Shown here one piece after another: positions 1-14,562 of a stretch of DNA of 64,000 nucleotides. The notes under the pieces are model-generated. The model did not search any database. It worked only from the letters and a program-made list of their open reading frames with translations, and was not told where the DNA came from. The stretch's first letter is position 1; every line of letters begins with the position of its first letter. This stretch comes from Thermithiobacillus tepidarius DSM 3134 (lineage in GTDB: Bacteria > Pseudomonadota > Gammaproteobacteria > Acidithiobacillales > Thermithiobacillaceae): assembly GCF_000423825.1 (NCBI RefSeq), contig NZ_AUIS01000005.1:124001-188000 (forward strand), in the 5' to 3' direction. The position numbers were made by a program, and so were the translations under genes.

Positions 1-411
1 AACGGCAATCCGCCCCTGATCAACGAGGACGGCTACCAGCAGCGCGATTTCGTCAGCGTCTACGACGTGGCCCGCGCCTGCCGCCTGGCCCTGGAGGTGC
101 CGGAGGCGGCGGACCAGGTCTTCAACATCGCCAGCGGCAACCAGTACACCATCCGCGAGGTGGCCGAGCGCATGGCCGTGGCCCTGGGCAAGCCGCAGAT
201 CCGGCCGGAGATCACCGGCAAGTACCGGGTCGGCGACATCCGCCACTGCGTGGCCGACATCGGCCATGCCCGCCGGGTGCTCGGCTACGAGCCGCGGGTG
301 AGCCTGGAGGAGGGGCTGGTCGAGCTGGCCGAGTGGCTGGAAGGCCAGAGCGCCGTGGACCGCGTGGCCGAGGCGCGCGCCGAACTGGCCATGCGGGGAC
401 TGGCCCTATGA
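1..411 (+). CDS. NAD-dependent sugar epimerase/dehydratase, C-terminal part
   Basis: The reading frame is open from the first base, so the gene begins outside the window and only about 136 C-terminal residues are seen. The visible part fits the substrate-binding half of an extended SDR sugar epimerase: QRDFVSVYDVARA, then FNIASGN, then a C-terminal helix region with VLGYEPRVSLEEGL. In this family RDFxxVxDVA and FN(I/V)xxG are standard landmarks. The Rossmann motif and the Tyr-x3-Lys pair would lie upstream. Its TGA overlaps the next ATG by 4 bp (ATGA), so it is translationally coupled to the glycan genes downstream. The exact sugar substrate cannot be read. Confidence 0.85.
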   Translation, partial: NGNPPLINEDGYQQRDFVSVYDVARACRLALEVPEAADQVFNIASGNQYTIREVAERMAVALGKPQIRPEITGKYRVGDIRHCVADIGHARRVLGYEPRVSLEEGLVELAEWLEGQSAVDRVAEARAELAMRGLAL

Positions 412-2399
412 CACAGCCGATCGTAGGCCTGGTGGAGTGGTTCCGGCCCGGCGAGCATGAGCGCGTGGAGCGCGTGCTCGCCGACTTGCGCAGCCTGGGC
501 GTGAAGGATCTGCGCGTCGGCGTGTCCTGGGCGGACTGGTTCTCGGCGGACGGCGAGGCCTGGTACCGCTGGCTGTTGCCGCGCTTGGCGCAGGAGGTGA
601 GGATCCTGCCCTGCTTTCTCGACGCCCTGCCTTTCCTGAACGCGGTCACCCGCCTGACGCGCCCGCCCCACGAGCCCGAGGCCTATGCCGACTGGATCGA
701 GCTCTTCATCGCCCGCCACGGCCAGACCTTCGAGTGGCTGGAGCTGTGGATCGATCCCTTCCTGCGGCAGCCGGACGCGGCGCTGGATGCCGGCGAGCAG
801 GTGTGCTTCAGCGAGATGCTGAGCGACGCCGCCCGCCGGGCCCGCAAGCAGGGCAAGAAGATCGTCCTGGGCGGCCTCAGCCCGCGCTACCCCAAGTGGC
901 TGCAGGTGCTGGCCGGCCATGGCCTGCTGGCGCACGTGGATGCGCTGGGCCTGCACGCCTTTCCGGGCACCTACGATTTCCAGTGGGAGGGCTGGCCCGA
1001 TGCCGTCGACCGGCTGCGCGGCATGCTGGCCGGGCCGGGCGCGCAGCCGGAGATCTGGATCAGCGAAACGGGCTACGCCACCGTGCGCCATGACGAGCGC
1101 CAGCAGCTGCGCGAATTCCTTGCCGCCCTGGACGCCCCGGTGACGCGGGTCTACTGGTACGGCCTGGAGGACCGGCCCGTGCCGGCCGAGGCGGGCGATT
1201 ATCAGGACGAGCGCGCGGCCCATTTCGGCCTGCGCCAGGCCGACGGCGCCCCCAAGCTGCTGTTCCGCCTGTGGGCGACGGGCGGCCTGGACGGCGTGCG
1301 CGAGGCGGCCTGGATGACCCGGCAGTGGCGGGCGAGCCGCGAGCGCGTGGCGCTCATCACCGGCGGCGCCGGCTTCATCGGCACCAATCTGGCCCATCGG
1401 CTGCTCGGCATGGGGCGGCCGGTGCTGATCCTGGACAACCTGGCCCGCCCCGGCGTGGAGCGCAACCTGCAGTGGCTGCGCGACACCCACGGCGAGCGTG
1501 CCCGCTTCCAACTGGCCGACATGCGCGATGCCGGCGCCGTGCGCGAGGCGGTGGCGCGGGCGGAGCAGGTCTACCACCTGGCGGCGCAGGTCGCCGTCAC
1601 CACCAGCCTGGTCAACCCCCTGCACGATTTCCAGGTCAACGCCCTGGGCACCATCAATCTGCTGGAGGCGGTGCGCGCCCAGGACGCGCCGCCGCCGGTG
1701 CTCATCACGTCCACCAACAAGGTCTACGGCGCCCTGGAGCAGGTGGGCCTGCGCCTGCACGGCAAGCGCTACGAGCCCGAGCAGGACCTGCTGCGCGGCC
1801 GCGGCATCGGCGAGGAGGCGCCGCTGGACTTCCACAGCCCCTACGGCTGCTCCAAGGGCGCGGCGGACCAGTACGTGCTCGACTACGCCCGTTCCTTCGG
1901 GCTGGCCACCGCCGTGTTCCGCATGAGCTGCATCTACGGCCCGCACCAGTTCGGCACCGAGGACCAGGGCTGGGTGGCCCACTTCCTGATCCGCGCCATC
2001 GAGGATCAGCCCATCACCCTCTACGGCGACGGCATGCAGGTGCGCGACGTGCTCTTCGTGGAGGACCTGGTGGACGCCCTGCTGCTGGCCATGGAGCGCA
2101 TGGACGCCCTGTCCGGCCAGGCCTTCAACATGGGCGGCGGGCCGGCCAACAGCGTGAGCCTGCTGGAGCTCATCGAGCTCATTGCCGAGCTGCACGGCGG
2201 CACGCCCGACTACCGCTTCGGCCCCTGGCGCGTGGGCGACCAGCGCTACTACGTGTCCGACACCCGCAAGTTCCAGGCCGCCACCGGCTGGCAGCCGCGC
2301 GTGGACGTGCGCACCGGCGTGCGGCGGCTCTACGAGTGGCTGCTGGCCAGCCGCGGGCTGGCGCCCCGGCGCCCGAAAACAGCGGAGGCAATGCGATGA
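408..2399 (+). CDS. Glycoside-hydrolase-like domain fused to NDP-sugar epimerase
   Basis: A 663-residue two-domain protein. Residues 1-295 form a GH39/GH-A-type TIM-barrel-like domain: LRVGVSWADW (35-44), WLELWIDP (110-117), GGLSP (155-159), LHAFP (182-186), WISETG (217-222) and VYWYGLED (248-255). Residues 312-650 are an extended SDR: GGAGFIG (319-325), STNKVYG (435-441) and SPYGCSK with Y479 and K483. STNKVYG is typical of CDP-paratose/tyvelose 2-epimerases. In clan A hydrolases the acid/base lies in an N-E pair; here the pair is I115-D116, while the nucleophile-position E220 is kept, so hydrolysis may be weak or replaced by binding. The start overlaps the upstream stop by 4 bp and the end overlaps the radical SAM gene by 4 bp. 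The domain is homologous to the permuted protein at 23518-24441. Confidence 0.85.
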   Translation: MTQPIVGLVEWFRPGEHERVERVLADLRSLGVKDLRVGVSWADWFSADGEAWYRWLLPRLAQEVRILPCFLDALPFLNAVTRLTRPPHEPEAYADWIELFIARHGQTFEWLELWIDPFLRQPDAALDAGEQVCFSEMLSDAARRARKQGKKIVLGGLSPRYPKWLQVLAGHGLLAHVDALGLHAFPGTYDFQWEGWPDAVDRLRGMLAGPGAQPEIWISETGYATVRHDERQQLREFLAALDAPVTRVYWYGLEDRPVPAEAGDYQDERAAHFGLRQADGAPKLLFRLWATGGLDGVREAAWMTRQWRASRERVALITGGAGFIGTNLAHRLLGMGRPVLILDNLARPGVERNLQWLRDTHGERARFQLADMRDAGAVREAVARAEQVYHLAAQVAVTTSLVNPLHDFQVNALGTINLLEAVRAQDAPPPVLITSTNKVYGALEQVGLRLHGKRYEPEQDLLRGRGIGEEAPLDFHSPYGCSKGAADQYVLDYARSFGLATAVFRMSCIYGPHQFGTEDQGWVAHFLIRAIEDQPITLYGDGMQVRDVLFVEDLVDALLLAMERMDALSGQAFNMGGGPANSVSLLELIELIAELHGGTPDYRFGPWRVGDQRYYVSDTRKFQAATGWQPRVDVRTGVRRLYEWLLASRGLAPRRPKTAEAMR

Positions 2400-3697
2400 A
2401 ATACGCTCTGGTCAACCCCCACTGGCGCTTCGACGGCTCCATCTACTTCGGCTGTCCCGAGCCGCACCTGCCCCTGGAATACGGCTACGCCCGCCAGTTG
2501 CTGGAGGCGGAAGGGCACGAGGTGCTGCTGGTGGACGGCCACCTGGAGCAGCTGAGCCGCGAGGCCATCCGCGACCGGGTGGCGGACTTCGCGCCCGACT
2601 TCACCGTCGTCACCACCGCGCCCAGCTATCTCTTCTGGCGCTGCGCCCAGCCCGAGCTGCGCGTGCCCCAGGAAACGGTGCGCGATCTGCGCGCGGTCGG
2701 CGGCACCCTGATCGGCGTCGGCCCGCACGGCTCCAGCACGCCGGGCATCGTCCTGCAAAAGCTCGGCGTGGACGTGCTGGTCATGGGCGAGTGCGAGGAC
2801 GTCCTGCCGCAACTGGCCGAGCGCGACACCTGGCCCTTCCTGCAATCCATCTGCTACTGGCAGGACGGCCGGCCGCGCGTGCAGGGCGGCCCGCACGCCA
2901 CCGACATGAGCCTGCTGCCGGCCCTGCGCTGGCCGGATGCGCTGGTGCGCCGCCACGGCCACCACCACCATCGCTTCGACGGCGCGCCCCAGGGCCCGGG
3001 CGCCGAGATGGAGGCCTCGCGCGGCTGTCCCTATCACTGCAGCTTCTGCGCCAAGGACAACTTCCGCGACCAGTACCGCCGCCGGCCGCTGGCGGTGGTG
3101 CTGGAGGAGCTGGACGGCCTCATCGCCCAGGGCGTCGAGTACATCTACTTCATCGACGAGATCTTCCTGCCCAACCGGGAGCTTCTGGAGGCGCTGGCGG
3201 CACGGCCGGTGAAGTTCGGCGTGCAGACCCGCATTGATCTCTGGAAGCCCGACATGATCGACCTCCTGGGCCGGGCCGGCTGCGTGTCCATCGAGGCGGG
3301 CGTGGAGAGCATCAGCGAGGAGGGGCGGCAACTGCTCGACAAGAACTGCCGGCTGTCCACCCCCGAGCTGGCCGAGCGCCTGATCCACGCCAAGCGGCTG
3401 GTGCCCTTCGTCCAGGCCACCCTGATGGAGTCCAAGGTGGACGACATGGAGGCCGTGGAGGCCTGGCGCGCCCACCTGCAGGCGCACGGCGTCTGGGCCA
3501 ACAAGCCGGTGCCGCTCTTCGCCTATCCCGGCTCGCCCGACTACCGCAAGCGCTGGGGCGCGCCCGACGACCAGGCCTGGGAGCGGGCCCACGCCGACTA
3601 TCTGGCCCAGTTCAGCGAATTCAGCGACATCCAGACGGAGCAGCCTCTGCCCCTGTCCCTGCTGGAGCTGTGCGAGGCCGAGCGCCGGGCGCCCTGA
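2396..3697 (+). CDS. B12-binding radical SAM protein of a glycan cluster
   Basis: 433 residues. The first about 190 look like a cobalamin-binding Rossmann domain (PLEYGYARQLLEAEGHEV, then GGTLIGVGPHG). The radical SAM core has CxxxCxxC as C211, C215 and C218 (GCPYHCSFCAK), which would bind the [4Fe-4S] cluster. FIDEIFLPN and SIEAGVES are typical later strands of the barrel. Class B radical SAM enzymes of this layout perform methyl transfer or other carbon-centred chemistry; the substrate here is unknown. A histidine-rich stretch (HGHHHHR, about 188-193) lies in the linker before the core. I recall a TIGRFAM family of such proteins tied to oligosaccharide clusters, but could not check it. The ATG overlaps the upstream TGA, and its own stop overlaps the next start by 1 bp. 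Confidence 0.85.
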   Translation: MKYALVNPHWRFDGSIYFGCPEPHLPLEYGYARQLLEAEGHEVLLVDGHLEQLSREAIRDRVADFAPDFTVVTTAPSYLFWRCAQPELRVPQETVRDLRAVGGTLIGVGPHGSSTPGIVLQKLGVDVLVMGECEDVLPQLAERDTWPFLQSICYWQDGRPRVQGGPHATDMSLLPALRWPDALVRRHGHHHHRFDGAPQGPGAEMEASRGCPYHCSFCAKDNFRDQYRRRPLAVVLEELDGLIAQGVEYIYFIDEIFLPNRELLEALAARPVKFGVQTRIDLWKPDMIDLLGRAGCVSIEAGVESISEEGRQLLDKNCRLSTPELAERLIHAKRLVPFVQATLMESKVDDMEAVEAWRAHLQAHGVWANKPVPLFAYPGSPDYRKRWGAPDDQAWERAHADYLAQFSEFSDIQTEQPLPLSLLELCEAERRAP

Positions 3698-4860
3698 TGC
3701 CGTCCGCCGCCCGCCCCCGGCGCATCCTGATGACCGCCGACACCGTCGGCGGGGTCTGGGTCTATGCCCTGGAGCTGGCGCGCGCCCTGGCGCCCCACGG
3801 CGTGGAAGTGGCGCTCGCCACCATGGGCGCGCCCCTGCGTCCGGCGCAATGGGCGGCGGCGCGCCGCCTGCCCAATCTCACGGTGCACGAGAGTGATTTC
3901 CGCCTCGAATGGATGGAGGCGCCCTGGGCGGACGTGGCGCGCGCCGGCACCTGGCTCATGGAGCTCGAAGAACGGATTCGCCCCGACCTGGTGCACCTGA
4001 ACGGCTACGCCCACGGCGCCCTGCCCTGGCACGCGCCCACCCTGGTGGTGGGCCACTCCTGCGTGCTGTCCTGGTGGCGGGCGGTGCGCGGCGAGGACGC
4101 CCCGCCGGCCTGGCAGCGCTACCGCGAGGCGGTGGCGCGCGGCCTGCGGGCGGCGGACCGGGTGGCGGCGCCCACCCGCGCCATGCTGGCGGCCCTGGAA
4201 TGGCACTACGGCCCGCTGCCCGCCGCCCGCGTGCTGCCCAACGGCCGGGCGGCGGCCGAGTTCGCGCCGCAGCCCAAGGCAAGCTACATCTTCGCCGCCG
4301 GCCGCCTCTGGGACGAGGCCAAGAACATCGGCGCCCTGGCCCGCGTCGCGCCGCAACTGCCCTGGCCCGTGTGGGTGGCCGGCGACACCCGCCACCCGGA
4401 CGGCGGCGAGTGCGAGACCGGCGCCGTGCGCGCCCTGGGCCGCCTCGATCAGGCGGCGCTCGCCGGCTGGCTCGGCCGCGCCGCCATCTATGCCCTGCCG
4501 GCCCGCTACGAGCCCTTCGGGCTGTCGGTGCTGGAGGCGGGTCTGGCCGGCTGCGCCCTGGTGCTGGGCGACATTCCCAGCCTGCGCGAGCTGTGGGACG
4601 GCGCCGCCTGCTTCGTGGACCCCCAGGACCCGGACGCCCTGGGCGCGGCGCTGACGGCGCTATGCCGCGACGAAGGGCGGCGGGCCCGCTTGGCCGCCGC
4701 GGCCCGCGCCCGCGCCCTGGGCTTCGGCCGCGAGCGCATGGCGGCGGCCTACCTGGACGCCTACGGCGAGCTGCTGAGCGAGCGCGCCGCGCTGCTGGGC
4801 GCCATGGAACGACTCCCGGCCGCCGGCCTGAGCGGCTGCGCGCCGGGGCCCATGCATTGA
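3697..4860 (+). CDS. GT4-family glycosyltransferase
   Basis: 387 residues with a GT-B fold pattern. The N-terminal domain begins LMTADTVGGVWVYALELARAL, where the glycine-rich loop is typical for GT4. The C-terminal nucleotide-sugar half shows AAGRLWDEAKN, then LPARYEPFGLSVLEAGLAGCALV, the E-x7-E type motif of retaining GT4 enzymes. The start ATG at 3697 shares one base with the upstream TGA (TGATG), so it is coupled to the radical SAM gene. It should act on a cytoplasmic sugar nucleotide; donor and acceptor are not evident. No membrane segment is seen. Confidence 0.85.
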   Translation: MPSAARPRRILMTADTVGGVWVYALELARALAPHGVEVALATMGAPLRPAQWAAARRLPNLTVHESDFRLEWMEAPWADVARAGTWLMELEERIRPDLVHLNGYAHGALPWHAPTLVVGHSCVLSWWRAVRGEDAPPAWQRYREAVARGLRAADRVAAPTRAMLAALEWHYGPLPAARVLPNGRAAAEFAPQPKASYIFAAGRLWDEAKNIGALARVAPQLPWPVWVAGDTRHPDGGECETGAVRALGRLDQAALAGWLGRAAIYALPARYEPFGLSVLEAGLAGCALVLGDIPSLRELWDGAACFVDPQDPDALGAALTALCRDEGRRARLAAAARARALGFGRERMAAAYLDAYGELLSERAALLGAMERLPAAGLSGCAPGPMH

Positions 4861-4893
4861 ACGACAAAACCTAGAGCAAAGGGAGGCCAGCGC

Positions 4894-6012
4894 TTGCGTA
4901 TCGTCCTGTTCTACCATTCCCTGGTGTCCGACTGGAACCACGGCAATGCCCACTTCCTGCGCGGCGTGGCGAGCGAGCTCCTGCGCCGCGGCCACGAGGT
5001 GCACGTCTACGAGCCCGCCGACGGCTGGAGCCGCGCCAACCTGCTGGCCGAACACGGCGAGAGCGCGCTGGACGGCTTCCACGCCGCCTATCCGGGGCTG
5101 CGCAGCCGGCTCTACGACGAGCGCAGCCTCGATCTCGACGCGGCCCTGGACGGCGCCGGCCTGGTGCTGGTGCACGAGTGGAACACGCATGAACTGGTGC
5201 GGCGCATCGGCGCGCACCGCGCCCGCACGGGCGGCTACCGCCTGCTCTTCCACGACACCCACCACCGCGCCGCGACCGACCCCGCCGCCATGGCCGCCTA
5301 CGACTTGCGCCATTACGACGGCGTGCTGGCCTTCGGCGGCGTGATCCGCGACCTCTATCTGGCCCAGGGCTGGGCGGCGCGCGCCTGGACCTGGCACGAG
5401 GCCGCCGACGTGCGGGTGTTCCGGCCGCTCGACGGCGAGGAGAAGGCGGGCGATCTCGTCTGGATCGGCAACTGGGGCGACGAGGAGCGCACGGCCGAGC
5501 TGCACGAATTCCTGCTGGGGCCGGTCAAGGCCCTGGGCCTCGATGCGCGCATCCACGGCGTACGCTATCCGGCGCACGCGCTCGCCGCGCTGCGCGAGGC
5601 CGGCATCGACTACGGCGGCTGGCTGCCCAACCACGCCGCGCCGGCCGCCTTCGCCCGCTACCGCGTCACCGTGCACGTGCCGCGCCGGCCCTACGCGCGG
5701 GCGCTGCCAGGCATTCCCACCATCCGCCCCTTCGAGGCCCTGGCCTGCGGCATCCCGCTGGTCTCCGCCCCCTGGGAGGACGCCGAAGGCCTCTTCACCC
5801 CCGGCGCGGACTACCTCGTGGCCCGCAATGGCGCCGAGATGCAGGCCCACCTGCGCATGCTGCTGGCCGATGCCGACGCCGCCCGCGCCCTGGCCGAGCG
5901 CGGCCGCCAGACCATCCTGGCGCGCCACACCTGCGCCCACCGGGTGGACGAGCTGCTGGACATCCACGCCGAGCTGGAGGGCCTGCCGGCGCGGCAGGCG
6001 GCGCTGGCATGA
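4894..6012 (+). CDS. CgeB-like glycosyltransferase (paralogue 1)
   Basis: 372 residues, TTG start chosen because GGGAGG stands about 7 bp upstream and the protein aligns from LRIVLFYHSLVSDW. It belongs to the same paralogous set as the genes at 6009, 30209 and 33089, all starting with a strand followed by S-x-W and an N/H-G pair, then RG and GHxVxxxE. The C-terminal part (TIRPFEALACGIPLVSAPWED, then LVARNGAEM) matches the Glyco_trans_1_2/CgeB type of GT-B enzyme. It follows the GT4 gene after 33 bp and overlaps the next gene by 4 bp. Substrate unknown. Confidence 0.8.
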   Translation: MRIVLFYHSLVSDWNHGNAHFLRGVASELLRRGHEVHVYEPADGWSRANLLAEHGESALDGFHAAYPGLRSRLYDERSLDLDAALDGAGLVLVHEWNTHELVRRIGAHRARTGGYRLLFHDTHHRAATDPAAMAAYDLRHYDGVLAFGGVIRDLYLAQGWAARAWTWHEAADVRVFRPLDGEEKAGDLVWIGNWGDEERTAELHEFLLGPVKALGLDARIHGVRYPAHALAALREAGIDYGGWLPNHAAPAAFARYRVTVHVPRRPYARALPGIPTIRPFEALACGIPLVSAPWEDAEGLFTPGADYLVARNGAEMQAHLRMLLADADAARALAERGRQTILARHTCAHRVDELLDIHAELEGLPARQAALA

Positions 6013-7130
6013 GCGCCGGCCTGCGCATCGCCTTCTTCGGCTCCAGCCTCGTCTCCGCCTACTGGAACGGCGCGGCCACCTACTACCGCGGCATCATCCG
6101 CGCCCTGCACGAGCGCGGCCACCGCGTCACCTTCTACGAGCCCGACGCCTACGGCCGCCAGCAGCACCGCGACATCCCCGACCCCGGCTGGGCGCGGGTG
6201 GTGGTCTATCCCGGCGAGGGCGAGGACGGCGTGCGCCGGGCCCTGGCGGACGCGCGCGGCGCGGACCTCGTCGTCAAGGCCAGCGGCGTCGGCGTCTTCG
6301 ACGCGCTGCTGGAGGCCGCCGTGCTGGACATGCAGGGACCGGCCACCCTGGTCGCCTTCTGGGACGTGGACGCGCCCGCCACCCTCGACCGCGTGCAGCA
6401 CGATCCCGCCGACCCCTTCCGCGCCCTCATCCCGCGCTACGACCTCATCCTCACCTACGGCGGCGGCGACCCGGTGGTCAACGCCTACACCGCCCTCGAC
6501 GCGCGCCAGTGCGTGCCCGTCTACAACGCCCTCGACCCGGCCACCCACCACCCGGTGCCGCCGGACCCGCGCTTCGACGGCGACCTCGCCTTCCTCGGCA
6601 ACCGCCTGCCCGACCGCGAGGCGCGGGTGGAGGAGTTCTTCCTCAAGGCCGCCGCCGCGCTGCCGGACAAGCGCTTTCTCCTGGGCGGCAACGGCTGGGG
6701 CGACAAGCCCCTGCCGCCCAACGTCCGCTATCTCGGCCACGTCTACACCGCCGACCACAACGCCCTCAACTGCACCCCGCGCGCCGTGCTCAACATCAGC
6801 CGCGAAAGCATGGCCCGCTACGGCTTCTCGCCGGCCACCCGCGTCTTCGAAGCCGCCGGCGCCGGCGCGTGCCTCATCACCGACCACTGGGAAGGCATCG
6901 AATGCTTCCTGGAGCCCGACCGCGAGATCCTCGTGGCCCGCGACGGCGACGCAGTCGCCGAACACCTCCGCGCCCTCACCTCCGAGCGCGCCCGCGCCAT
7001 CGGCCAAGCCGCCCTGCGCCGCGTCCTCGCCGAACACACCTACGCCCACCGGGCGGCACAGGTGGAGGCGCTGCTGATGGGGAAGCGGGAGGGCAAGAGG
7101 GCGGGGGTGCTGGGGCGCAGGCTGGGCTGA
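6009..7130 (+). CDS. CgeB-like glycosyltransferase (paralogue 2)
   Basis: 373 residues. The N-terminus has the set's signature (IAFFGSSLVSAYWNGAATYY, then RGIIRALHERGHRVTFYEPD). The C-terminal sugar-nucleotide half has TRVFEAAGAGACLITDHWEG and ILVARDGDAV. The ATG overlaps the preceding TGA by 4 bp. The last about 20 residues are Lys/Gly/Arg-rich and diverge from the paralogues. This is the last gene of the left half of the glycan locus; the integron island follows directly, so a continuation of the operon may have been displaced. Confidence 0.8.
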   Translation: MSAGLRIAFFGSSLVSAYWNGAATYYRGIIRALHERGHRVTFYEPDAYGRQQHRDIPDPGWARVVVYPGEGEDGVRRALADARGADLVVKASGVGVFDALLEAAVLDMQGPATLVAFWDVDAPATLDRVQHDPADPFRALIPRYDLILTYGGGDPVVNAYTALDARQCVPVYNALDPATHHPVPPDPRFDGDLAFLGNRLPDREARVEEFFLKAAAALPDKRFLLGGNGWGDKPLPPNVRYLGHVYTADHNALNCTPRAVLNISRESMARYGFSPATRVFEAAGAGACLITDHWEGIECFLEPDREILVARDGDAVAEHLRALTSERARAIGQAALRRVLAEHTYAHRAAQVEALLMGKREGKRAGVLGRRLG

Positions 7131-7682
7131 GCCGGCGCCTGATCGAGGGGAGCAGGCAGAGCGGGCGGCGCGCGCCTGAGCTTGCCCCCGTTGGATTTCG
7201 CAATCTCAGCCCAATCTTGTCTCAACAGCCTTCCTGCCTCGCCCAGCCACCAAGCTTGCCGGCCGCCTCGCGCACAGCAGGTGGTCCAGCCAGGACAGCG
7301 ACTGCTTCAGCACCGCGCGAAAAGCCGCGCCGCCCAGCCTCGCCTTGACTTGCACTCGCCATCCCGCCGCCCCTCGTTCCAGAGGCGGCGCTTGCCATGA
7401 AACAGGATACAGCCCCCACAATCCAGCCCGACACGCCTGCTCCGTGCATGGGCTATAATGCCTGCATGGATGGGGTCCTTGGCTTGATCCAGCCGCTTTG
7501 GTTTGGGATGGCCGGTTGGCGTGACGGCAACTTTGGTGGTCTGATCCGCTTTTTCATTAGGGTGTGTAACAAAGGCGATCTGGCGATATGTGCCGGTGGG
7601 GTTAATGCGTATGGGTGTTACACGCTATGTTGGTGTAAAATAATGCACCTGTTAGGGTGGCTAATAGAAAGTTAGGGCTACT
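7131..7682. other. Gene-poor junction between glycan locus and cassette array
   Basis: 552 bp without a convincing gene. The first about 300 bp keep the high GC of the flank; after about 7440 the sequence becomes AT-richer. A perfect -10 hexamer TATAAT lies at 7454-7459 (+), but no good -35 stands at the right spacing. An 8-bp exact inverted repeat, GTGTAACA/TGTTACAC, spans about 7564-7623 and could be a degenerate attC or attI stem. Short open frames on both strands here (for example 7206-7421 minus and 7397-7675 plus) match nothing I recognise. An integron integrase would be expected in this position and is not present. Confidence 0.5.
7671..7677 (+). other. Integron core site GTTAGGG at the head of the array
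   Basis: GTTAGGG, agreeing with GTTRRRY except at the last base, stands 6 bp before the ATG of the first cassette gene. A second GTTAGGG is at 7651. In an integron, the first cassette is joined to attI at such a site, so this is either the attI crossover point or the 3' end of a lost cassette's attC. No integrase gene is nearby to decide. Confidence 0.4.
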
Positions 7683-8203
7683 ATGGAACTCCTCGGAAAC
7701 CACAAGGTGACATTCGATTTACTTCGTTCAATAGCGATCGAATGTCATGCGCTTGATGTGGCTGCGTATCACTTATTTGTTGACAGTACGCATTTGGAGG
7801 GAGTCGAAAAAACCAAAGAAATTTACGAGGAGCTTATGACGTCTCTGCTTCTCAATCTTGCCATTTCACTGCGCACGAAGTTCTATCAGGGTCTCGACCA
7901 CCGCACCACAATCCCATTTGTTTCCTACTGCGGGTTTCTTTTCAAGTACGCAAATAACCAAGAAGAAACCGTTAATTTCTCTATCAAGGATGTTTGCGAC
8001 AAGATTGTTCACGCCGATTCAGTTTCAAGGTATATGGAACCGGAGATACGACATCCAACGACATCTTTTCGCAAGATCTTCGCAGCAACTCCACGTGGGA
8101 ATTATCAATGTCAGTCAATCTGTTTACCGAGGCTGTGCTGAACTGGATACACCACACAGAGACAAACCCACCATCCATTTCGTGTTCGGAGATTGCACAA
8201 TGA
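7683..8203 (+). pseudogene. Cassette gene 1, unknown function, probably frameshifted
   Basis: The frame starting at ATG 7683 runs well (MELLGNHKVTF, then DVCDKIVHADSVSRYMEP) but its 3' end to 8141 looks unnatural. Another frame takes over from about 8060 with a natural-looking tail (STWELSMSVNLFTEAVLNWI) and stops at TGA 8201-8203, in a 4-bp overlap with the lipoprotein ATG. The simplest reading is one protein of about 170 residues broken by an indel between about 8040 and 8080. A sequencing error would give the same picture. No known domain is recognised. It sits 6 bp after a GTTAGGG core site, as cassette genes do. Confidence 0.5.
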
Positions 8204-8616
8204 AATACACCCCAGTTCTATTGCTCGGCTTGCTGCTAACCGCATGTGCTACGAGTTTCGATACTTTTGACCGCGCCTTACCAAAACTGAAGGGCCAAAA
8301 TATCAAAGTCGCAATTAATTATCTTGGCATTCCAGACCAGGAGTACGTGGTCGCAGGGAAAAAAGTGTATGTTTGGAGTACCACCGGAACCAACCCATTT
8401 CCGACCGCCGTTACGACCACGACCGACGGCACAGCGGGGAATAAACCATTCAAGGCTACATCAACAACTTACGCTTACGATCCCACCCCTCTTGGTTGCA
8501 AAGTCAAAATAGCCACTGACAACGAAATCGTAACCAACATTGAGTACGACGGAAATAATGGTCCTTGCTTCAAATATTCCGAGCGATTGAAGCCTCTTCT
8601 GGATGGGGCTAGCTAG
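8200..8616 (+). CDS. Cassette-encoded lipoprotein
   Basis: 138 residues. The N-terminus MKYTPVLLLGLLLTACATSF is a lipoprotein signal with lipobox LTAC, so the mature protein should be anchored through the cysteine. The rest contains a KVYVWSTTGTN segment, a Thr-rich stretch (TAVTTTTDGT) and a C-terminal Cys pair in PLGCKVKIA and GPCFKY that could form a disulfide. It overlaps the preceding gene by 4 bp with no attC between, so the two form one two-gene cassette ending at the attC of 8633. Function unknown. Confidence 0.75.
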   Translation: MKYTPVLLLGLLLTACATSFDTFDRALPKLKGQNIKVAINYLGIPDQEYVVAGKKVYVWSTTGTNPFPTAVTTTTDGTAGNKPFKATSTTYAYDPTPLGCKVKIATDNEIVTNIEYDGNNGPCFKYSERLKPLLDGAS

Positions 8617-8632
8617 CCGTGGTGGCAATCAG

Positions 8633-8713
8633 CCCTAACAATCGCTTCGAGAGGGACGCTCCGCCAGCAAGCTTCGCTTGCTGCCTCCGCGCCCCTCAAG
8701 CGAAACGTTAGGC
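8633..8713 (+). repeat. attC site 1
   Basis: Bounded by CCCTAAC (8633-8639) and GTTAGGC (8707-8713), fitting the attC inverse core and core. The arms TCGCTTCGAGAGGGACGC and GCGCCCCTCAAGCGA are imperfect inverted repeats, and the centre holds a small palindrome around CAAGCTTCGCTTG. Length 81 bp is normal. The near-identical left arm recurs at 10229. Confidence 0.85.
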
Positions 8714-8731
8714 TGAACACAAAGGAAACAA

Positions 8732-9298
8732 ATGAACACACGGAATCTACTTGTTCTGCCAGATGATTTGCCGGTCCCTGAAGATGATGGTGCATGCGCC
8801 CATCTGGAAGGGATGAATATGCCTACCATCGCTCTGGCAAGTACTTCAGGCGCCAAGATAAACCTTGGGCTTGAGGATGGAATATCCGTCGTTTATTTTT
8901 ACCCCATGACCGGGAGGCCGGATGCACCTCCGATGGTTGGTTGGAACGAGATCCCTGGCGCAAGAGGGTGTACGCCACAATCCTGTTCGTTTCGTGACCA
9001 TCATTCTGACCTTCTCAATATAGGGGCCAAGGTATACGGCGTCAGCTCGCAATCATCGGAAGACCAGAAAGAAGCTGTTCAGCGCCTCCATTTGCCTTTT
9101 GAGTTATTGAGCGACAGCAGCTTTGAGTTGGCAACCGCATTGAGGCTGCCTACGTTCAAATACAACTCCTTACGCCTCATCAAAAGGCTCACCCTCATTA
9201 TTAAAAACGGTTCGATACGCAAAGTGTTCTATCCAGTTTTTCCGCCAAACGAAAATGCCGCCAATGTCATCGCTTGGCTTCAGAAAAACGATGCCTAA
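8732..9298 (+). CDS. Cassette-encoded peroxiredoxin (AhpC/TSA, PrxQ-like)
   Basis: 188 residues. VVYFYPMTGRP (53-63), GARGCTPQSCSFRD with C80 and C85, and KVYGVSSQSSEDQKE identify a thioredoxin-fold peroxiredoxin. The cysteine in the TPxxC position (C85) is the likely peroxidatic residue, with C80 five residues earlier as in some Prx proteins. It would reduce hydrogen or organic peroxides in the cytoplasm with thiol reductants. The start is 19 bp after the attC core, with AAGGAA upstream. Its TAA lies inside the next attC, the usual cassette geometry. Confidence 0.85.
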   Translation: MNTRNLLVLPDDLPVPEDDGACAHLEGMNMPTIALASTSGAKINLGLEDGISVVYFYPMTGRPDAPPMVGWNEIPGARGCTPQSCSFRDHHSDLLNIGAKVYGVSSQSSEDQKEAVQRLHLPFELLSDSSFELATALRLPTFKYNSLRLIKRLTLIIKNGSIRKVFYPVFPPNENAANVIAWLQKNDA

Positions 9299-9370
9299 CA
9301 CTGCATTCCACCCGACCCACTACAGAGGGCTTAGCCCGCTTCCGTGGTCGGGTGAATTTGAACGTTAGGG
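9293..9370 (+). repeat. attC site 2
   Basis: GCCTAAC (9293-9299) and GTTAGGG (9364-9370) bound a 78-bp site. The arms CACCCGACCAC-like and GTGGTCGGGTG pair well, and the central TACAGAGGGCTTAGCCCGCT also occurs in the attC at 11120. The upstream gene's stop codon is contained in the inverse core. Confidence 0.9.
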
Positions 9371-9382
9371 CTTAAGGACATA

Positions 9383-10234
9383 ATGGCAACGTGGTTCGAA
9401 CAAAACGCAGTTGATCTGATCGGCCATGCTTTGACGGTTGTTGGAATCGTTGCTGCCGCCGTAACTGTAGTCTGGCAGCTTGGTCGCCAACATAAGAGTT
9501 CACTCATGCTCCAGCGAGATAACGCCAGAGAAGAACTGAAGCTTCGGTTGCATGAAATTCTTACCAAAAAGGTAAGAAAGTTATCGAACGCAAATGTCCA
9601 CGCGGCCATGTACGCGTACATGATTCCGTTCAACGTCGAGAATTATCAAAGGCAAATTGCACAGGGGTTGCAACCGGCCCCTATTAAGGAGCGTGCGCCG
9701 GAATTTTCACGGCTACATACAGAAGCAAACAATGCGCTTATTGAACTCATCCAGGAATTTGAGGCTTGGTCCATAGCTTTTCCTGGTATTGAGGTCTTTC
9801 AGGTAGCATTGAACGCCGCGAATCATGATGCTCGGGAAGCGTTTGTCCCATTGTTTACCGCACTCCTTCGGGTGCTGCCCATGGACCCGCCGGAAAACGC
9901 GCCACCGAACATGCCGAGACCTCTAGTGCCCGGTCCGATATCCAAGGATGAGTATGAACAGTTAAAAATATTGGTGGGGAGGTACAAGGAAGCGATGGAT
10001 GACATCGGCAGTTATGTTCATGATCTTACTATTGAGTCGCAAAACAAGCTGTTATCAGGTCTTTTCGAGCGTCGCGTACCTCTGAGGCAACCAATCGATC
10101 CGAAACTAAAAGTAATTACCACCCACCCGGAAAAGGCTGAGCAATTGTTGCGCTATTTTGAGAATGAGACACCCTGGGGGAAATCTAAACGTGACACGGA
10201 AGCTAGCGTCAAGGCAAAGCTTGGGGAGCCCTAA
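9383..10234 (+). CDS. Cassette-encoded membrane-anchored protein, unknown
   Basis: 283 residues, beginning 12 bp after the attC core. One N-terminal hydrophobic helix (about 10-32, LIGHALTVVGIVAAAVTVVW) is followed by a charged, coiled-coil-prone stretch (RDNAREELKLRLHEILTKK) and a long soluble helical region. A Pro-rich segment (DPPENAPPNMPRP) lies near residue 175. The topology suggests a short periplasmic tail and a cytoplasmic body, or the reverse. The cassette gene at 11206 has the same plan but no clear sequence match. No family recognised. Confidence 0.75.
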   Translation: MATWFEQNAVDLIGHALTVVGIVAAAVTVVWQLGRQHKSSLMLQRDNAREELKLRLHEILTKKVRKLSNANVHAAMYAYMIPFNVENYQRQIAQGLQPAPIKERAPEFSRLHTEANNALIELIQEFEAWSIAFPGIEVFQVALNAANHDAREAFVPLFTALLRVLPMDPPENAPPNMPRPLVPGPISKDEYEQLKILVGRYKEAMDDIGSYVHDLTIESQNKLLSGLFERRVPLRQPIDPKLKVITTHPEKAEQLLRYFENETPWGKSKRDTEASVKAKLGEP

Positions 10235-10287
10235 CAATCGCTTCGAGAGGGACTCGCTACGTCGGCGCTTCGTGCGAAATGCATGAA
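10229..10287 (+). repeat. attC site 3, truncated
   Basis: CCCTAACAATCGCTTCGAGA is the same left arm as attC site 1 (8633), preceded by the stop of the 9383 gene. After about 35 bp the resemblance stops and no partner GTTRRRY core follows; at 10288 a terminal-inverted-repeat element begins. The site therefore appears to have lost its right half. Confidence 0.7.
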
Positions 10288-10400
10288 ATGGGGTCAGGTC
10301 TCACATTTTACATCTTTCTGTTGTACCTACTGGACCGATCTCTACAGAAAGTGGGGACCCGGCTGGCCGCGGTGTAGGAATGTTAGACCTGACCCCACTG
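10288..10400. mobile_element. Short terminal-inverted-repeat element, copy 1
   Basis: About 113 bp with ends TGGGGTCAGGTCTCACATTT and, on the other strand, GTGGGGTCAGGTCTAACATT. The core GGGGTCAGGTCT is exact in both ends. It encodes nothing. Internal GACCCGGCTGGC is shared with the second copy at 13581. Ends of the GGGGTCAG type are common next to REP-associated tyrosine (Y1) transposase systems, so it may be moved in trans by such an enzyme; this is inference. It lies at the broken edge of attC site 3. Confidence 0.65.
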
Positions 10401-10474
10401 ACCGAAGATTGGTATAGCGCTTTTCGTGTTCGCGTCTGTCGCGTAGAGCGCGAGCATGGTTTCTGAAATTCGCT
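10401..10474 (+). pseudogene. Remnant 3' end of a lost cassette gene
   Basis: Between the repeat element and the next attC a reading frame reads TEDWYSAFRVRVCRVEREHGF and then TGA, ending just before the GCCCAAC inverse core at 10475. Position and stop placement suit the tail of a cassette gene whose body was removed when the repeat element arrived. The fragment is too short to identify. Confidence 0.4.
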
Positions 10475-10543
10475 GCCCAACCCATCATTCCAGTGGACTG
10501 CCAAAAGCTTCGCTTTTGCCGCTGCTGAACTCACATGTTGGGC
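10475..10543 (+). repeat. attC site 4
   Basis: GCCCAAC (10475-10481) and GTTGGGC (10537-10543) are exact complements, 69 bp apart end to end. A central hairpin GCCAAAAGC-TTC-GCTTTTGCC forms the variable terminal structure. It ends the cassette remnant and precedes the kinase-like gene. Confidence 0.8.
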
Positions 10544-10546
10544 GGC

Positions 10547-11113
10547 ATGGAGAGCAGATCAGTGAGCAAAATGCCTGAGATGAGGCGAGTTGCAGTTTTT
10601 GGCAATGCTGGCGGCGGCAAATCAACGCTAGCTCGGCAACTGGCCAGCATTACCCGCTTGCCGCTGCACTCACTCGACACCATCAAATACAAGCCTGGTG
10701 GCGGTGAGGTGCCTCACAACGAGTACCTTCGGATTCATTCCGAACTCATACGCGGAGACAGGTGGATCATTGACGGGTTCGGCTGCGTGCCATCCGCCTG
10801 GGAACGTTTCTCGGCTGCTGACACGTTGATCTACGTCGACCTACCTCTATTCACGCATTACGTCTGGGTGACAAAGCGTCTTGTAAAGGGTCTTGTCGTC
10901 ACGCCCGAGGGGTGGCCTGAGAATAGTCCGATATGGCGCGGCACATTGAACAGCTATCGCGTACTTCGGCTCTGTCATGAAAAATTGACACCCAAATACC
11001 GGCAGTTGGTTGCAGAGCAGACCACTCACAAGCGAGTGCATCACTTGACATCGCCTAAGGCCATGAAGACTTTTGTTCGGGCTATTACCGATGAATATTC
11101 CGGTATCCGGTGA
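10547..11113 (+). CDS. Cassette-encoded P-loop kinase-like protein (FlaR/adenylate-kinase type)
   Basis: 188 residues from ATG 10547; an alternative in-frame ATG at 10571 would begin MPEMRRVAVFG and fit the family better. The Walker A motif GNAGGGKST is followed by LPLHSLDTIKYKPG and DRWIIDGFG, the layout of small P-loop proteins annotated as DNA topology modulation (FlaR-related) or adenylate-kinase-like. DTLIYVDLPL is the likely Walker B strand. These proteins bind ATP; the true substrate is generally unproved. It begins 3 bp after an attC core and ends just before the next. Confidence 0.75.
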   Translation: MESRSVSKMPEMRRVAVFGNAGGGKSTLARQLASITRLPLHSLDTIKYKPGGGEVPHNEYLRIHSELIRGDRWIIDGFGCVPSAWERFSAADTLIYVDLPLFTHYVWVTKRLVKGLVVTPEGWPENSPIWRGTLNSYRVLRLCHEKLTPKYRQLVAEQTTHKRVHHLTSPKAMKTFVRAITDEYSGIR

Positions 11114-11119
11114 AATGAC

Positions 11120-11197
11120 GCCCAACCCTGCGCTCCAGCCGACCGGCTACAGAGGGCTTTGCCCGCTTCCGCCGTCGGCTGAGCTGGTGCGTTAGGT
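11120..11197 (+). repeat. attC site 5
   Basis: GCCCAAC (11120-11126) to GTTAGGT (11191-11197), 78 bp. The arms CAGCCGACCGGC and GCCGTCGGCTG pair, and the centre TACAGAGGGCTTTGCCCGCT is nearly identical to attC site 2, so these two cassettes probably share an origin of their recombination sites. Confidence 0.9.
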
Positions 11198-11205
11198 TTC
11201 ACAAA

Positions 11206-11787
11206 GTGGATACCGCTACCGTTGGCCTTGTCGGTGCAGTCCTTGGTGCCGCTGGTGCGCTCTCAACAGTCTTCTTAACGCATCGCTTCACACAGAAGCG
11301 AGAAGAACAGAAGTACGAGCGAGAGCGAGAACAAGAAAATGATCGCTGGTTGAGAGATCAAAGGCAGACGTGCTATCACAACGCTGTCAAATATCTAATT
11401 CGAGTGCGTGCTATTGGTGCCTACGTCAAGAACACCAAGACAGTCAAACTTCCCGAAGATGCACCGCTTAGTTGGTACGACGACATTTCTGAGGCAAATG
11501 CTTGGCTAACGTCGTTGCACTACTACTGCGGTGATGACTACCACGACGACATTGGTGAGGTGTCTACTGAATTCCTGAACCTCTCCAACTGGCTAATAGG
11601 CTTCCGCCCGACGGGCACCATTTCCAAGAAACAGTTTTTGCATATTCTTTCGTCGGACGGCAAGCTTGACTACCAAGAGTTTGTGGACCTCATGCTTCAA
11701 ATAGAAAACGTTATTTCCAATTGTGCCCGCCAGGAGTTCAAGCTTGGCCCAAGACCGGAATTTTCTTCGCTGCAAAATGAGATATAA
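11206..11787 (+). CDS. Cassette-encoded membrane-anchored coiled-coil protein, unknown
   Basis: 193 residues from GTG 11206, 8 bp after the attC core. An N-terminal transmembrane helix (about 5-25, VGLVGAVLGAAGALSTVFL) leads into a highly charged coiled-coil-like stretch (KREEQKYEREREQENDRW, about 31-48). The C-terminal part is soluble and acidic (YYCGDDYHDDIGEVS). The plan matches the 9383 cassette gene. The stop is inside or beside the next attC. No family recognised. Confidence 0.7.
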   Translation: MDTATVGLVGAVLGAAGALSTVFLTHRFTQKREEQKYEREREQENDRWLRDQRQTCYHNAVKYLIRVRAIGAYVKNTKTVKLPEDAPLSWYDDISEANAWLTSLHYYCGDDYHDDIGEVSTEFLNLSNWLIGFRPTGTISKKQFLHILSSDGKLDYQEFVDLMLQIENVISNCARQEFKLGPRPEFSSLQNEI

Positions 11788-11846
11788 CCTTACAGTCGAG
11801 TGGCCTGTGCGAAAAGCTGCACAGGCCACTCGCTTCCACGTTAGAA
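11782..11846 (+). repeat. attC site 6 (degenerate cores, long stem)
   Basis: The inverse core is degenerate (ATATAAC) and the core is GTTAGAA (11840-11846). Between them GAGTGGCCTGTGC and GCACAGGCCACTC form an exact 13-bp stem. The site separates two + strand genes as the others do. Confidence 0.7.
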
Positions 11847-11850
11847 CTTC

Positions 11851-12558
11851 ATGACACAGAATGGCTTCGTAAAAGTAAGCTTTGGCAAGGCAGAGTTATC
11901 CGCCTTTAAAAGTGCCGTCTTACGGAACAGGCCTTACCAGGAGCGCGTCAGTATCGCCCTGGCGATTCGTCTGGCCAATGCCTCCGCTGAAAACATTGAT
12001 GTCTTCTCCGTCTTAGATGAGCTCGACTATCTGGAGGGCATCAAGTCGTCATCCCGAATAAAGAAAGAGGCACAATTTCGGAAGCCACCACTTCAAGGCT
12101 TTTGGCACAAGCATTTCTTCTCAGCAAGGCACCTCATCAAGAATGTGAGCGTTCGTTGGAATCTTGAAAGCGGCAACAAGGATCTTTCAGTAATGATTGA
12201 GGACGTTGCAAACGAGTATGGAGAAGACCCGGATCTATGGCCAAACGTACTGACACATCGACTCGTAGTTGAAGGATTTGAAGATCGGGCCAGCCGTGGC
12301 TTAACTGGCGATTGGATCGTTTACGCAAAGCATGAAGAGCAGAATTTTACCTTGACCTTGCGACTCACAATGAAGGGCTTCAACCTGAGCAGTTGCTTCA
12401 AAAGCTACGAAATGGATGCCATACAGAATTCTCGTTCATCTTTGATTGAGAAGATTCTAGCTAGTCGTTCAACGGGACTGCCTTCGGCCAGCCACTTAAC
12501 TCTAACGTTATGCTCCAGGATGGGGAAATGCCGTACCAAACACGAATTGAAAATATAG
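11851..12558 (+). CDS. Cassette-encoded protein of unknown function reading through its attC
   Basis: 235 residues from ATG 11851, 4 bp after the attC core. The first about 200 residues look like a folded soluble protein (VSIALAIRLANAS, ENIDVFSVLDELDYLEG). The last about 33 residues are translated from the attC at 12454-12513 and from the start of the next gene, with which it overlaps by tens of bases, because the usual stop in the attC inverse core is absent. The native tail was probably shorter. No family recognised. Confidence 0.65.
   Translation: MTQNGFVKVSFGKAELSAFKSAVLRNRPYQERVSIALAIRLANASAENIDVFSVLDELDYLEGIKSSSRIKKEAQFRKPPLQGFWHKHFFSARHLIKNVSVRWNLESGNKDLSVMIEDVANEYGEDPDLWPNVLTHRLVVEGFEDRASRGLTGDWIVYAKHEEQNFTLTLRLTMKGFNLSSCFKSYEMDAIQNSRSSLIEKILASRSTGLPSASHLTLTLCSRMGKCRTKHELKI
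12454..12513 (+). repeat. attC site 7 (mutated inverse core)
   Basis: The right half TTAACTCTAACGTTATGC ends in core GTTATGC (12507-12513). The left half contains TCGTTCAACGGGACTGCC, a typical attC left arm, preceded by ATTCTAGC where CCTAAC would be expected. TTCGGCC forms the loop. The altered left core removes the stop that normally ends the upstream gene. Confidence 0.6.
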
Positions 12559-13061
12559 ATCTCGCGGATGTGCCATTTGCGGATGATCTTTTGGAGGCGT
12601 TCGACGAGCGATGTTTTCAAATTGTTGAGACCTTTTTGGGCTCTGTTGATTTGTCTAAAGTTCGAGGCTGTTATCACCCTGACTACGCCGGGATGACTTG
12701 GGGCCAACTAAAGCCAGTGCTGGGTTCCGTAGAGGGTGATAGGAACGATCCGAAAGTTGCGTTTCAATCTCTGAAGCGGGCCGTCGACAATGCAAAAGAC
12801 CTTCATCGAAATCCGGACTGCTACCTAGGCAAAGACGAAAAGGACCATTGGTCATTTTATGAGCTCTCTGGGGAATACTTCATAAGCTCGGGAGTGCATA
12901 GAACGGTAATCGGAAGATTCTTCTTCTGGTTGAATGGTCTGCCTCCGCTAGTTCATGGGGTCTCCGTTACACGCCTGAAGGCTGCTACCCCCAAAATGGT
13001 TGTAGAAGATGAACGTCAGCTCAGCATTGCAGAGAGGATCAAGCATGCTCTTTTTGGATAA
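12528..13061 (+). CDS. Cassette-encoded protein of unknown function
   Basis: 177 residues from ATG 12528, chosen because AGGATGGGG stands just upstream; ATG 12510, inside the attC core, is in frame and adds six residues. The sequence is soluble with aromatic-rich stretches (GCYHPDYAGMTWGQLK, HWSFYELSGEYFISSG, RFFFWLNGLPPLVHG). It ends just before the attC at 13063. No domain recognised. Confidence 0.65.
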   Translation: MPYQTRIENIDLADVPFADDLLEAFDERCFQIVETFLGSVDLSKVRGCYHPDYAGMTWGQLKPVLGSVEGDRNDPKVAFQSLKRAVDNAKDLHRNPDCYLGKDEKDHWSFYELSGEYFISSGVHRTVIGRFFFWLNGLPPLVHGVSVTRLKAATPKMVVEDERQLSIAERIKHALFG

Positions 13062-13062
13062 A

Positions 13063-13131
13063 GCATAACACTGCACTTCAGCCGACATTGGACCGCTCCG
13101 CAGCCCTCTGCCGCTGAGCTTGGCGTTGTGC
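13063..13131 (+). repeat. attC site 8
   Basis: GCATAAC (13063-13069) to GTTGTGC (13125-13131), 69 bp. CTGCACTTCAGCCGAC in the left arm resembles attC sites 2 and 5. The arms CACTTCAGC and GCTGAGCTTGG pair imperfectly. Confidence 0.75.
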
Positions 13132-13156
13132 ACCCTTTATCAGATAGGAGTCTTTT

Positions 13157-13570
13157 GTGAATGCAAAGTATTCTGGGCAGTGTCTTTGTGGGGAGATAAG
13201 CTATTCAGTTGATATTGAGCCAGTGTTTGCTGGAAATTGTCATTGCAAAGACTGTCAAAGGTCATCAGGCAGTGCATTCATTCCAGCGATGATTTTTCCT
13301 GAAAAAGATGTTGTTGTTTCAGGTGAAGTAAAATACTTCGAGTCTCAGGCAGACAGCGGAAATATGCACAAAAGAGGTTTTTGCCCGAATTGTGGCTCTC
13401 AATTGTTTGCTCGATTCAGCAATATGCCAGGAATGCTGGGTATAAAGGCTGGAACTTTAAATGACTCATCGAATTATGTTCCAAAGTTAGATTTCCATGT
13501 GGGTAGTGCTGCACCTTGGGACTTTATGAACCCAGAGCTACCTAAAAAGCAAGGGACAGCACAAGGCTAA
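13157..13570 (+). CDS. Cassette-encoded GFA/CENP-V-type zinc protein
   Basis: 137 residues from GTG 13157, with AGGAG about 9 bp upstream. CLCGEISYSV, CHCKDCQRSSGS and FCPNCGSQLF give the cysteine pattern of the GFA family: C9 and C11, C28, C30 and C33, C76 and C79. The fold binds one or two zinc ions. The family name comes from glutathione-dependent formaldehyde-activating enzyme, but most members have no proved reaction. It is the last cassette seen; no attC follows, and a repeat element begins 10 bp after the stop. Confidence 0.85.
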   Translation: MNAKYSGQCLCGEISYSVDIEPVFAGNCHCKDCQRSSGSAFIPAMIFPEKDVVVSGEVKYFESQADSGNMHKRGFCPNCGSQLFARFSNMPGMLGIKAGTLNDSSNYVPKLDFHVGSAAPWDFMNPELPKKQGTAQG

Positions 13571-13580
13571 GGAAGCGCGA

Positions 13581-13695
13581 AACAGGGTCAGGTCTAACAT
13601 TCCTACACCCTTCGGCTACATTTCCTGCGTGGCTCGACCGTCAAAAAGTTGCGACCCGGCTGGCGATGGTGCAGGAATCTGACAACTGATCCTGT
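13581..13695. mobile_element. Short terminal-inverted-repeat element, copy 2
   Basis: About 115 bp. The left end AACAGGGTCAGGTCTAACAT and the complement of the right end AACAGGATCAGTTGTCAGAT are imperfect inverted repeats continuing to CCTACACC/CCTGCACC. GACCCGGCTGGC inside is shared with copy 1 at 10288. It replaces the attC expected after the GFA cassette gene and marks the right edge of the low-GC island. Confidence 0.65.
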
Positions 13696-13749
13696 TGACG
13701 GACTGAGCCAATCCAGCCCGGCGGCCAAGGAACCTAAACAAAAACACCC

Positions 13750-14562
13750 CTACCTTACCCCCACCCCCAAGCGGGCAGGCCAGTGGATCTCCACCGGGCC
13801 TGCGCCGAATTCGCTTTCGAGCCTCGCCACGAGCTCCTTGGAGAGCGCTTCCCACTCAGCGGGAGGGAGCTTCTGCTTCAGGAGCGCCACCGGGGCGGAG
13901 CTGCGTACGTTGGACTCCCAGAAGGCGTGTATGGAGGGGTAGGCGTTGCGGTGCGCGGTGGTGTGGATCTCGACTTCGTGAAAGCCCGCGTCCGTCATTT
14001 CCAGCCGGAATTCCTCGACATCGGCCAGCGGCCCTTTCCCTGATGCGAACGGCAGGCCGGGCAGGCAGGCGCGCAGGGTGTCGAAGAGGGCGGCCATGAG
14101 CGGGACCTGATCGAGGGGCGCCCAGCTGGATACCACGGCGCGGCGGCCGGGACGCAGCACGCGCGCGAGTTCGCGGAAGCCCGCCGCCCGGTCCGGGAAG
14201 AACATCAGGCCGAACATGGAGAAGGCGGCGTCGAAGCTGGCCTCGGCAAAGGGCAGGGACTGGGCGTCGGCCTGGTGGATGTCGACATTGCCGATCCCCG
14301 CTTCGGCGGCGCGGCGGCGCAGTTGCGCCACCATGGCTTCGGCGAAGTCCACGGCGACCACGCGCTCCGCCGCCGCGGCCACCTGCAGCGACAGCGTGCC
14401 CGGACCGGCGGCCACGTCGAGCACGTGGGCCCGGGCGGGCAGCCGGCCGAGCGCGATGGCATCGCGGGCGTAAAGGGCAAAGATCGGCAGCAGATCGGCC
14501 ACGTAGCCGGCGGCGATGGTGTTCCAGGGGCCGGGCTGGGCCAGGGGGCTGGGTTGCGGCAT
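13750..14562 (-). CDS. Class I SAM-dependent methyltransferase
   Basis: 270 residues. HVLDVAAGPGTLSLQVA is motif I of a Rossmann methyltransferase; VVAVDFAEAMV follows with the acidic SAM-ribose residue, then ADAQSLPFAEASFDAAFSMFGLMFFPD and RELARVLRPGRRAVVSSW. This is the Methyltransf_11/ubiE-like layout for small molecules. The substrate is unknown. It starts 45 bp downstream of the MAPEG gene on the same strand, so the two may be co-transcribed. Base composition is back to that of the flanks. Confidence 0.85.
   Translation of the reverse strand: MPQPSPLAQPGPWNTIAAGYVADLLPIFALYARDAIALGRLPARAHVLDVAAGPGTLSLQVAAAAERVVAVDFAEAMVAQLRRRAAEAGIGNVDIHQADAQSLPFAEASFDAAFSMFGLMFFPDRAAGFRELARVLRPGRRAVVSSWAPLDQVPLMAALFDTLRACLPGLPFASGKGPLADVEEFRLEMTDAGFHEVEIHTTAHRNAYPSIHAFWESNVRSSAPVALLKQKLPPAEWEALSKELVARLESEFGAGPVEIHWPARLGVGVR

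Follow-up and report, generated by a model that had tools for sequence, protein, structure and literature searches.

The locus raises the question of whether a run of gene cassettes beside glycan genes of Thermithiobacillus tepidarius, in the stretch of 64,000 nucleotides analysed here (the window), ever had an integrase of its own. In a standard integron the integrase gene intI lies on the minus strand, followed by the attI site and the plus strand cassettes, which IntI inserts at attI via the folded bottom strand of attC. The sequence-only reading of the window had proposed a CALIN-type array beginning at 7671, without integrase and inserted in or beside the glycan locus.

Imperfect palindromes of 59 to 81 nt separate plus strand genes over positions 7671-13573. 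Seven attC sites were found by a covariance model (R2), all on the plus strand and within the array, in the same orientation as their cassettes, with scores of 32.3 to 51.1 bits (E 1e-9 to 3e-5) as opposed to 14.8 bits for the next best match in the whole 64-kb window. R2 was built from 17 attC of integrons of other genomes, excluding window sequences; these 17 were gathered with a first model (R1) made from six sites picked by eye, so R2 is independent in its sequences and not fully so in its design. As MAFFT alignment of full-length attC misaligned the variable loops, the model used the arms and a neutral loop. The arms covary, with 88% of cells paired compared to 73% in shuffles and 26-46% with the partner slid. 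With filters off, R2 gave no additional site above noise over 7100-14000; an Rfam scan found no integron feature, and the simple core pattern GCCTAAC..GTTAGGC had zero matches genome-wide. Beside the seven sites there are two truncated or decayed remnants: a 5' half at about 10229-10284, which shares 27 nt exactly with the beginning of attC 1, and an R'' core at 13578-13584. The GC content of the array is 0.493, compared to 0.73 and 0.68 in the flanks. The attC sites (with scores well above background), the lower GC of the cassettes and, from the ORF list, their plus strand orientation were thus all as had been read by eye. Stop codons inside the inverse core, also part of that reading, are present in three cassettes (9296-9298, 10232-10234 and 11785-11787) and are not a general rule.

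Table. Features of the integron locus in the window and of related elements on contig C31.
Feature	Position	Strand	Details
Fossil intI, 5' part	7251-7549	-	indel-broken; 3' two thirds missing; nucleotide homology to C2 intI
attI-like region	7550-7679	+	two TTAGGGTNNNTAA direct repeats (7558, 7654); core AAAGTTAGGG at first cassette junction
Cassette 1	7671-8713	+	ORF 7683-8141; ORF 8194-8616 (lipoprotein-like); attC 8633-8713, 37.3 bits
Cassette 2	8732-9370	+	peroxiredoxin-like gene 8732-9298 (AhpC-TSA, E 3.6e-13); attC 9293-9370, 45.8 bits
Cassette 3	9383-10284	+	ORF 9383-10234; 5'-half attC about 10229-10284
Palindromic element, about 120 bp, copy A	10285-10405	.	fold, copy alignment, genome-wide search; directly after attC 3 half-site
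attC 4	10475-10543	+	42.8 bits; next after copy A, no ORF between
P-loop cassette	10535-11197	+	DNA topology modulation type gene 10535-11113; attC 11120-11197, 51.1 bits
Cassette	11206-11846	+	ORF 11206-11787; attC 11782-11846, 35.0 bits
Cassette	11851-12513	+	ORF from 11851 runs through attC 12455-12513 to 12558; attC 32.3 bits
Cassette	12510-13131	+	ORF 12510-13061; attC 13063-13131, 36.0 bits
Last cassette	13125-13578	+	GFA-family gene 13157-13570 (E 9.8e-32); own attC lost after decayed R'' core
Palindromic element, copy B	13579-13702	.	68% identical to copy A; caps array
Palindromic copies on C31 (L161)	628-756, 2684-2806, 3051-3168, 3958-4074		similarity search with copy A
Y1 (RAYT-type) transposase	C31:4588-5451		PF01797, E 1.8e-10

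The recognisable cassette products are a peroxiredoxin, a topology-modulation P-loop protein (NF005994, E 1.8e-20, under the cut-off of that family) and a GFA-family protein. The other cassette ORFs had no informative match: the second ORF of cassette 1 matches phrog_3716 (E 3e-20), and the ORF starting at 11851 matches phrog_33791 (E 9e-9) and has plasmid homologues without assigned function. The first ORF of cassette 1 is possibly frameshifted near 8030, as read from overlapping frames. In cassette 3 the model detected no complete attC, and the R'' core of the attC at 12455-12513 is degenerate (TTCTAGC). PADLOC gave no convincing match on the cassettes. The GFA cassette has homologues of 86-94% nucleotide identity in integron cassettes of genomes G003, G018, G014 and G013; the G003 cassette, 93.5% identical over 464 nt, has kept its attC and has an attC on either side and an integrase gene adjoining.

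Upstream of the array there is no open intI gene, as the sequence-only reading had it, and contig C3, which carries the window, has no match to the integron integrase model TIGR02249. What that reading missed is a decayed 5' end of intI with an attI region at 7251-7679, so that the feature starts near 7251 and not at 7671. This segment is colinear with the intI 5' end and attI region of a second locus on contig C2, with 66% identity over 318 columns (E 5e-25) and 76% over 70 nt (E 3e-9). The local alignment score of the stump to C2 is 84, compared to at most 17 in 500 dinucleotide shuffles and 18 in other blocks of the window. Named bacteria (L095, L075, L084 and others) provide independent matches to 7251-7679 with the 5' ends of their intI genes, at a best E of 1e-10. 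In the attI-like region the last 66 nt are 71% identical to the sequence upstream of C2 intI and the spacer 54%, and the repeat pair is common to both loci, as read from sequence. Homology and the core-like junction make 7550-7679 a candidate recombination site, here called attI. The stump is on the minus strand, divergent from and directly before the first cassette, which is the canonical integron layout; what is left of intI can still be recognised next to the cassettes. At protein level tblastn with distant IntI proteins gave no signal above noise at the stump. The ends given for the stump are approximate, and its integrase is the presumed, though not provable, builder of this array.

The glycan genes (window 1-7082) match the sister genome G001 at 75%; there the match stops and other genes follow in G001. 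The array is therefore located where synteny breaks off next to the glycan genes, not at a clean insertion site, and the idea of an integrase-free array inserted in a glycan locus does not hold, since stump and attI region are kept. In G001 no integron integrase exceeds the cut-off, and there are a few attC-like sites at other places.

The TIGR02249 cut-off is exceeded at only one locus genome-wide, at the end of contig C2, where intI adjoins tadA-like and guaA-like genes (names read from translations). This gene is broken by an in-frame TAG (L015 8310-8312) and lacks model positions 47-76, about 30 codons of the N-terminal domain. The assembly thus has no intact integrase gene over the cut-off, neither on C3 nor on C2. 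C2 ends in one half of an IS5-like element, and the other half begins contig C31. When the flanks on C2 and C31 were joined, one open frame resulted across the junction, over which there is a weak alignment with a Halobacterium protein (E 3e-4), and from these sequence comparisons C31 very probably continues the C2 array. The first C2 cassette gene (L015 8727-9043 and L161 317-730) has an in-frame TGA and is split by the IS5-like insertion at the contig break. On C31 one weak attC only was found (17.6 bits), together with a GTTAGGC cassette core at 782 and degenerate cores; after the GTTAGGC core follows a gene with a GmrSD_N domain (DUF262, L161 886-2682), a possible restriction-type cassette. 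The search for a complete integron elsewhere in the genome thus led to a related one on C2/C31, itself incomplete and with a broken intI. In several relatives of the same order (G003, G006, G013, G017, G021 and G022) IntI matches are fragmentary or contain stops, and integrase decay may therefore be frequent in the order of the host. Contig C1 carries one good lone attC before a small ORF (L053 10701-10765, G000:C1:254701-254765). Directly preceding it are another RAYT-like gene and the REP-like palindrome GTTGGGCTTCGCGGCGCTCAGCCCAAC (L052 1070-1500), the arms of which resemble attC cores.

Seven attC sites with covarying arms, the homology of stump and attI region and the divergent orientation, together with the broken IntI of C2, a last cassette common to other integrons, low GC and a synteny break at the stump, make it highly likely that the region is a degenerated chromosomal integron. 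As an alternative, array and stump may stem from the C2 integron, part of which would have been duplicated or transposed to this site. The best match of the stump is indeed the C2 locus, which is also the sole match of the attI region; however, nucleotide identity is only 66-76% and no shared cassette was seen, so that any duplication from C2 would be old, and we regard this origin as unlikely. That the C2 IntI, acting in trans, deposited the array at a secondary site, or that recombination moved it, without the array ever having had an integrase of its own, would agree with the absence of an open intI gene nearby, with the related integron on C2/C31 and with Xanthomonas, where CALINs distant from the integrase locus are common (PMC12444791). 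Such deposition would not have brought along the intI 5' end and attI region that immediately precede the array, correctly ordered and oriented, and is thereby largely refuted and very improbable. That an intact integrase belongs here and was lost in a draft assembly, where the end of contig C2 does fall in an IS of an array, is hardly credible, as the array lies mid-way in a 203-kb contig and the passage from glycan gene to stump to cassettes is continuous and without a repeat.

CALINs are defined as at least two attC sites without an adjacent integrase gene and have been proposed to be degraded integrons (IntegronFinder 2.0, PMC9024848). With seven attC sites, no neighbouring integron integrase gene and no TIGR02249 match on its contig, the array is a CALIN by annotation rules, as had been claimed, and a degenerated integron by content, keeping a divergent intI stump and an attI-like region which, in distinction to the CALINs of that study, are still recognisable in nucleotides. 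Pseudogenes of intI with stop codons, frameshifts or deletions are frequent while cassettes persist (PMC2426708; in Xanthomonas, PMC12444791), and more than one integron per genome has been reported among such cases in the same works. The present genome shares both traits, but the locus in the window has decayed further, to the 5' third of intI only, undetectable as protein. Since degraded integrons and intI pseudogenes are already in the literature (PMC9024848, PMC2426708, PMC12444791), the locus is a well-preserved fossil of a known gene-capture system and no new system.

In the degenerated integron, a rearrangement next to the glycan genes probably removed the 3' two thirds of intI, and the remainder would have decayed by indels, leaving stump and attI region as the rest of the original integrase side. 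As there is no integrase in cis and the only IntI locus over the cut-off, on C2, is broken, the array would be frozen; we infer this state from a draft assembly in 43 contigs without an intact IntI. Past recombination activity, present inertness and the order of the decay events are likewise inferred.

The palindromic element of a RAYT-type transposase is present at one internal attC and at the array end. An exact-motif search implied very few copies; searching the whole genome for sequences similar to copy A raised the number, and still found none beyond the two integron arrays. The element was not found in the plasmid collection searched. Two copies come after a 5' attC half or core and two before a 3' core. 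Some copies have GTAG in both arms (e.g. GGTGTAGGAATG), the tetranucleotide that precedes the short hairpin of a canonical REP, a hairpin that is at most putative here. The transposase on C31 has element-like ends around it (4543-4598 and 5409-5462); with an IS200-like Y1 transposase gene and related palindromic repeats at its ends it resembles the REPtrons (TnpA-REP/RAYT and REP, PMC8266576), although in this genome the copies, of about 120 bp each, are few and occur in integron arrays only. A CALIN of Halorhodospira halochloris has an IS200/IS605 element directly downstream (PMC7923331), and there too an element dependent on single strands (Y1 transposase) ends an array without integrase; here, in contrast, the RAYT-type transposase is on another contig and the copies are short, non-autonomous and partly inside attC. 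The element motif adjoins a related RAYT in G072 too, and a RAYT homologue of 54% lies within the integron locus of G052, where a tandem series of GACCCCGGGATGAT-like units comes after it (L040 13100-13340).

As all detectable copies are in two arrays and several abut half-attC sites, the transposase and its copies could insert preferentially into attC hairpins, killing the sites and helping to freeze the arrays, a reading which we consider doubtful. General attC targeting by the RAYT family is not supported, since none of 27 homologous loci in relatives (1.5 kb to either side) contained an attC at E<=1. Most simply, one REPtron would have entered these arrays and spread locally; clustering close to the transposase gene has been described for REPtrons (PMC8266576). 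Were a link between RAYT and attC to hold in other genomes, it would add a new way in which arrays can freeze.

The locus shows how a CALIN can originate in place: the integrase decays and the cassettes stay. As the stump escapes standard protein-based annotation, comparing intI and attI regions as nucleotides could link some arrays counted as integrase-free to an integrase of their own that was lost.
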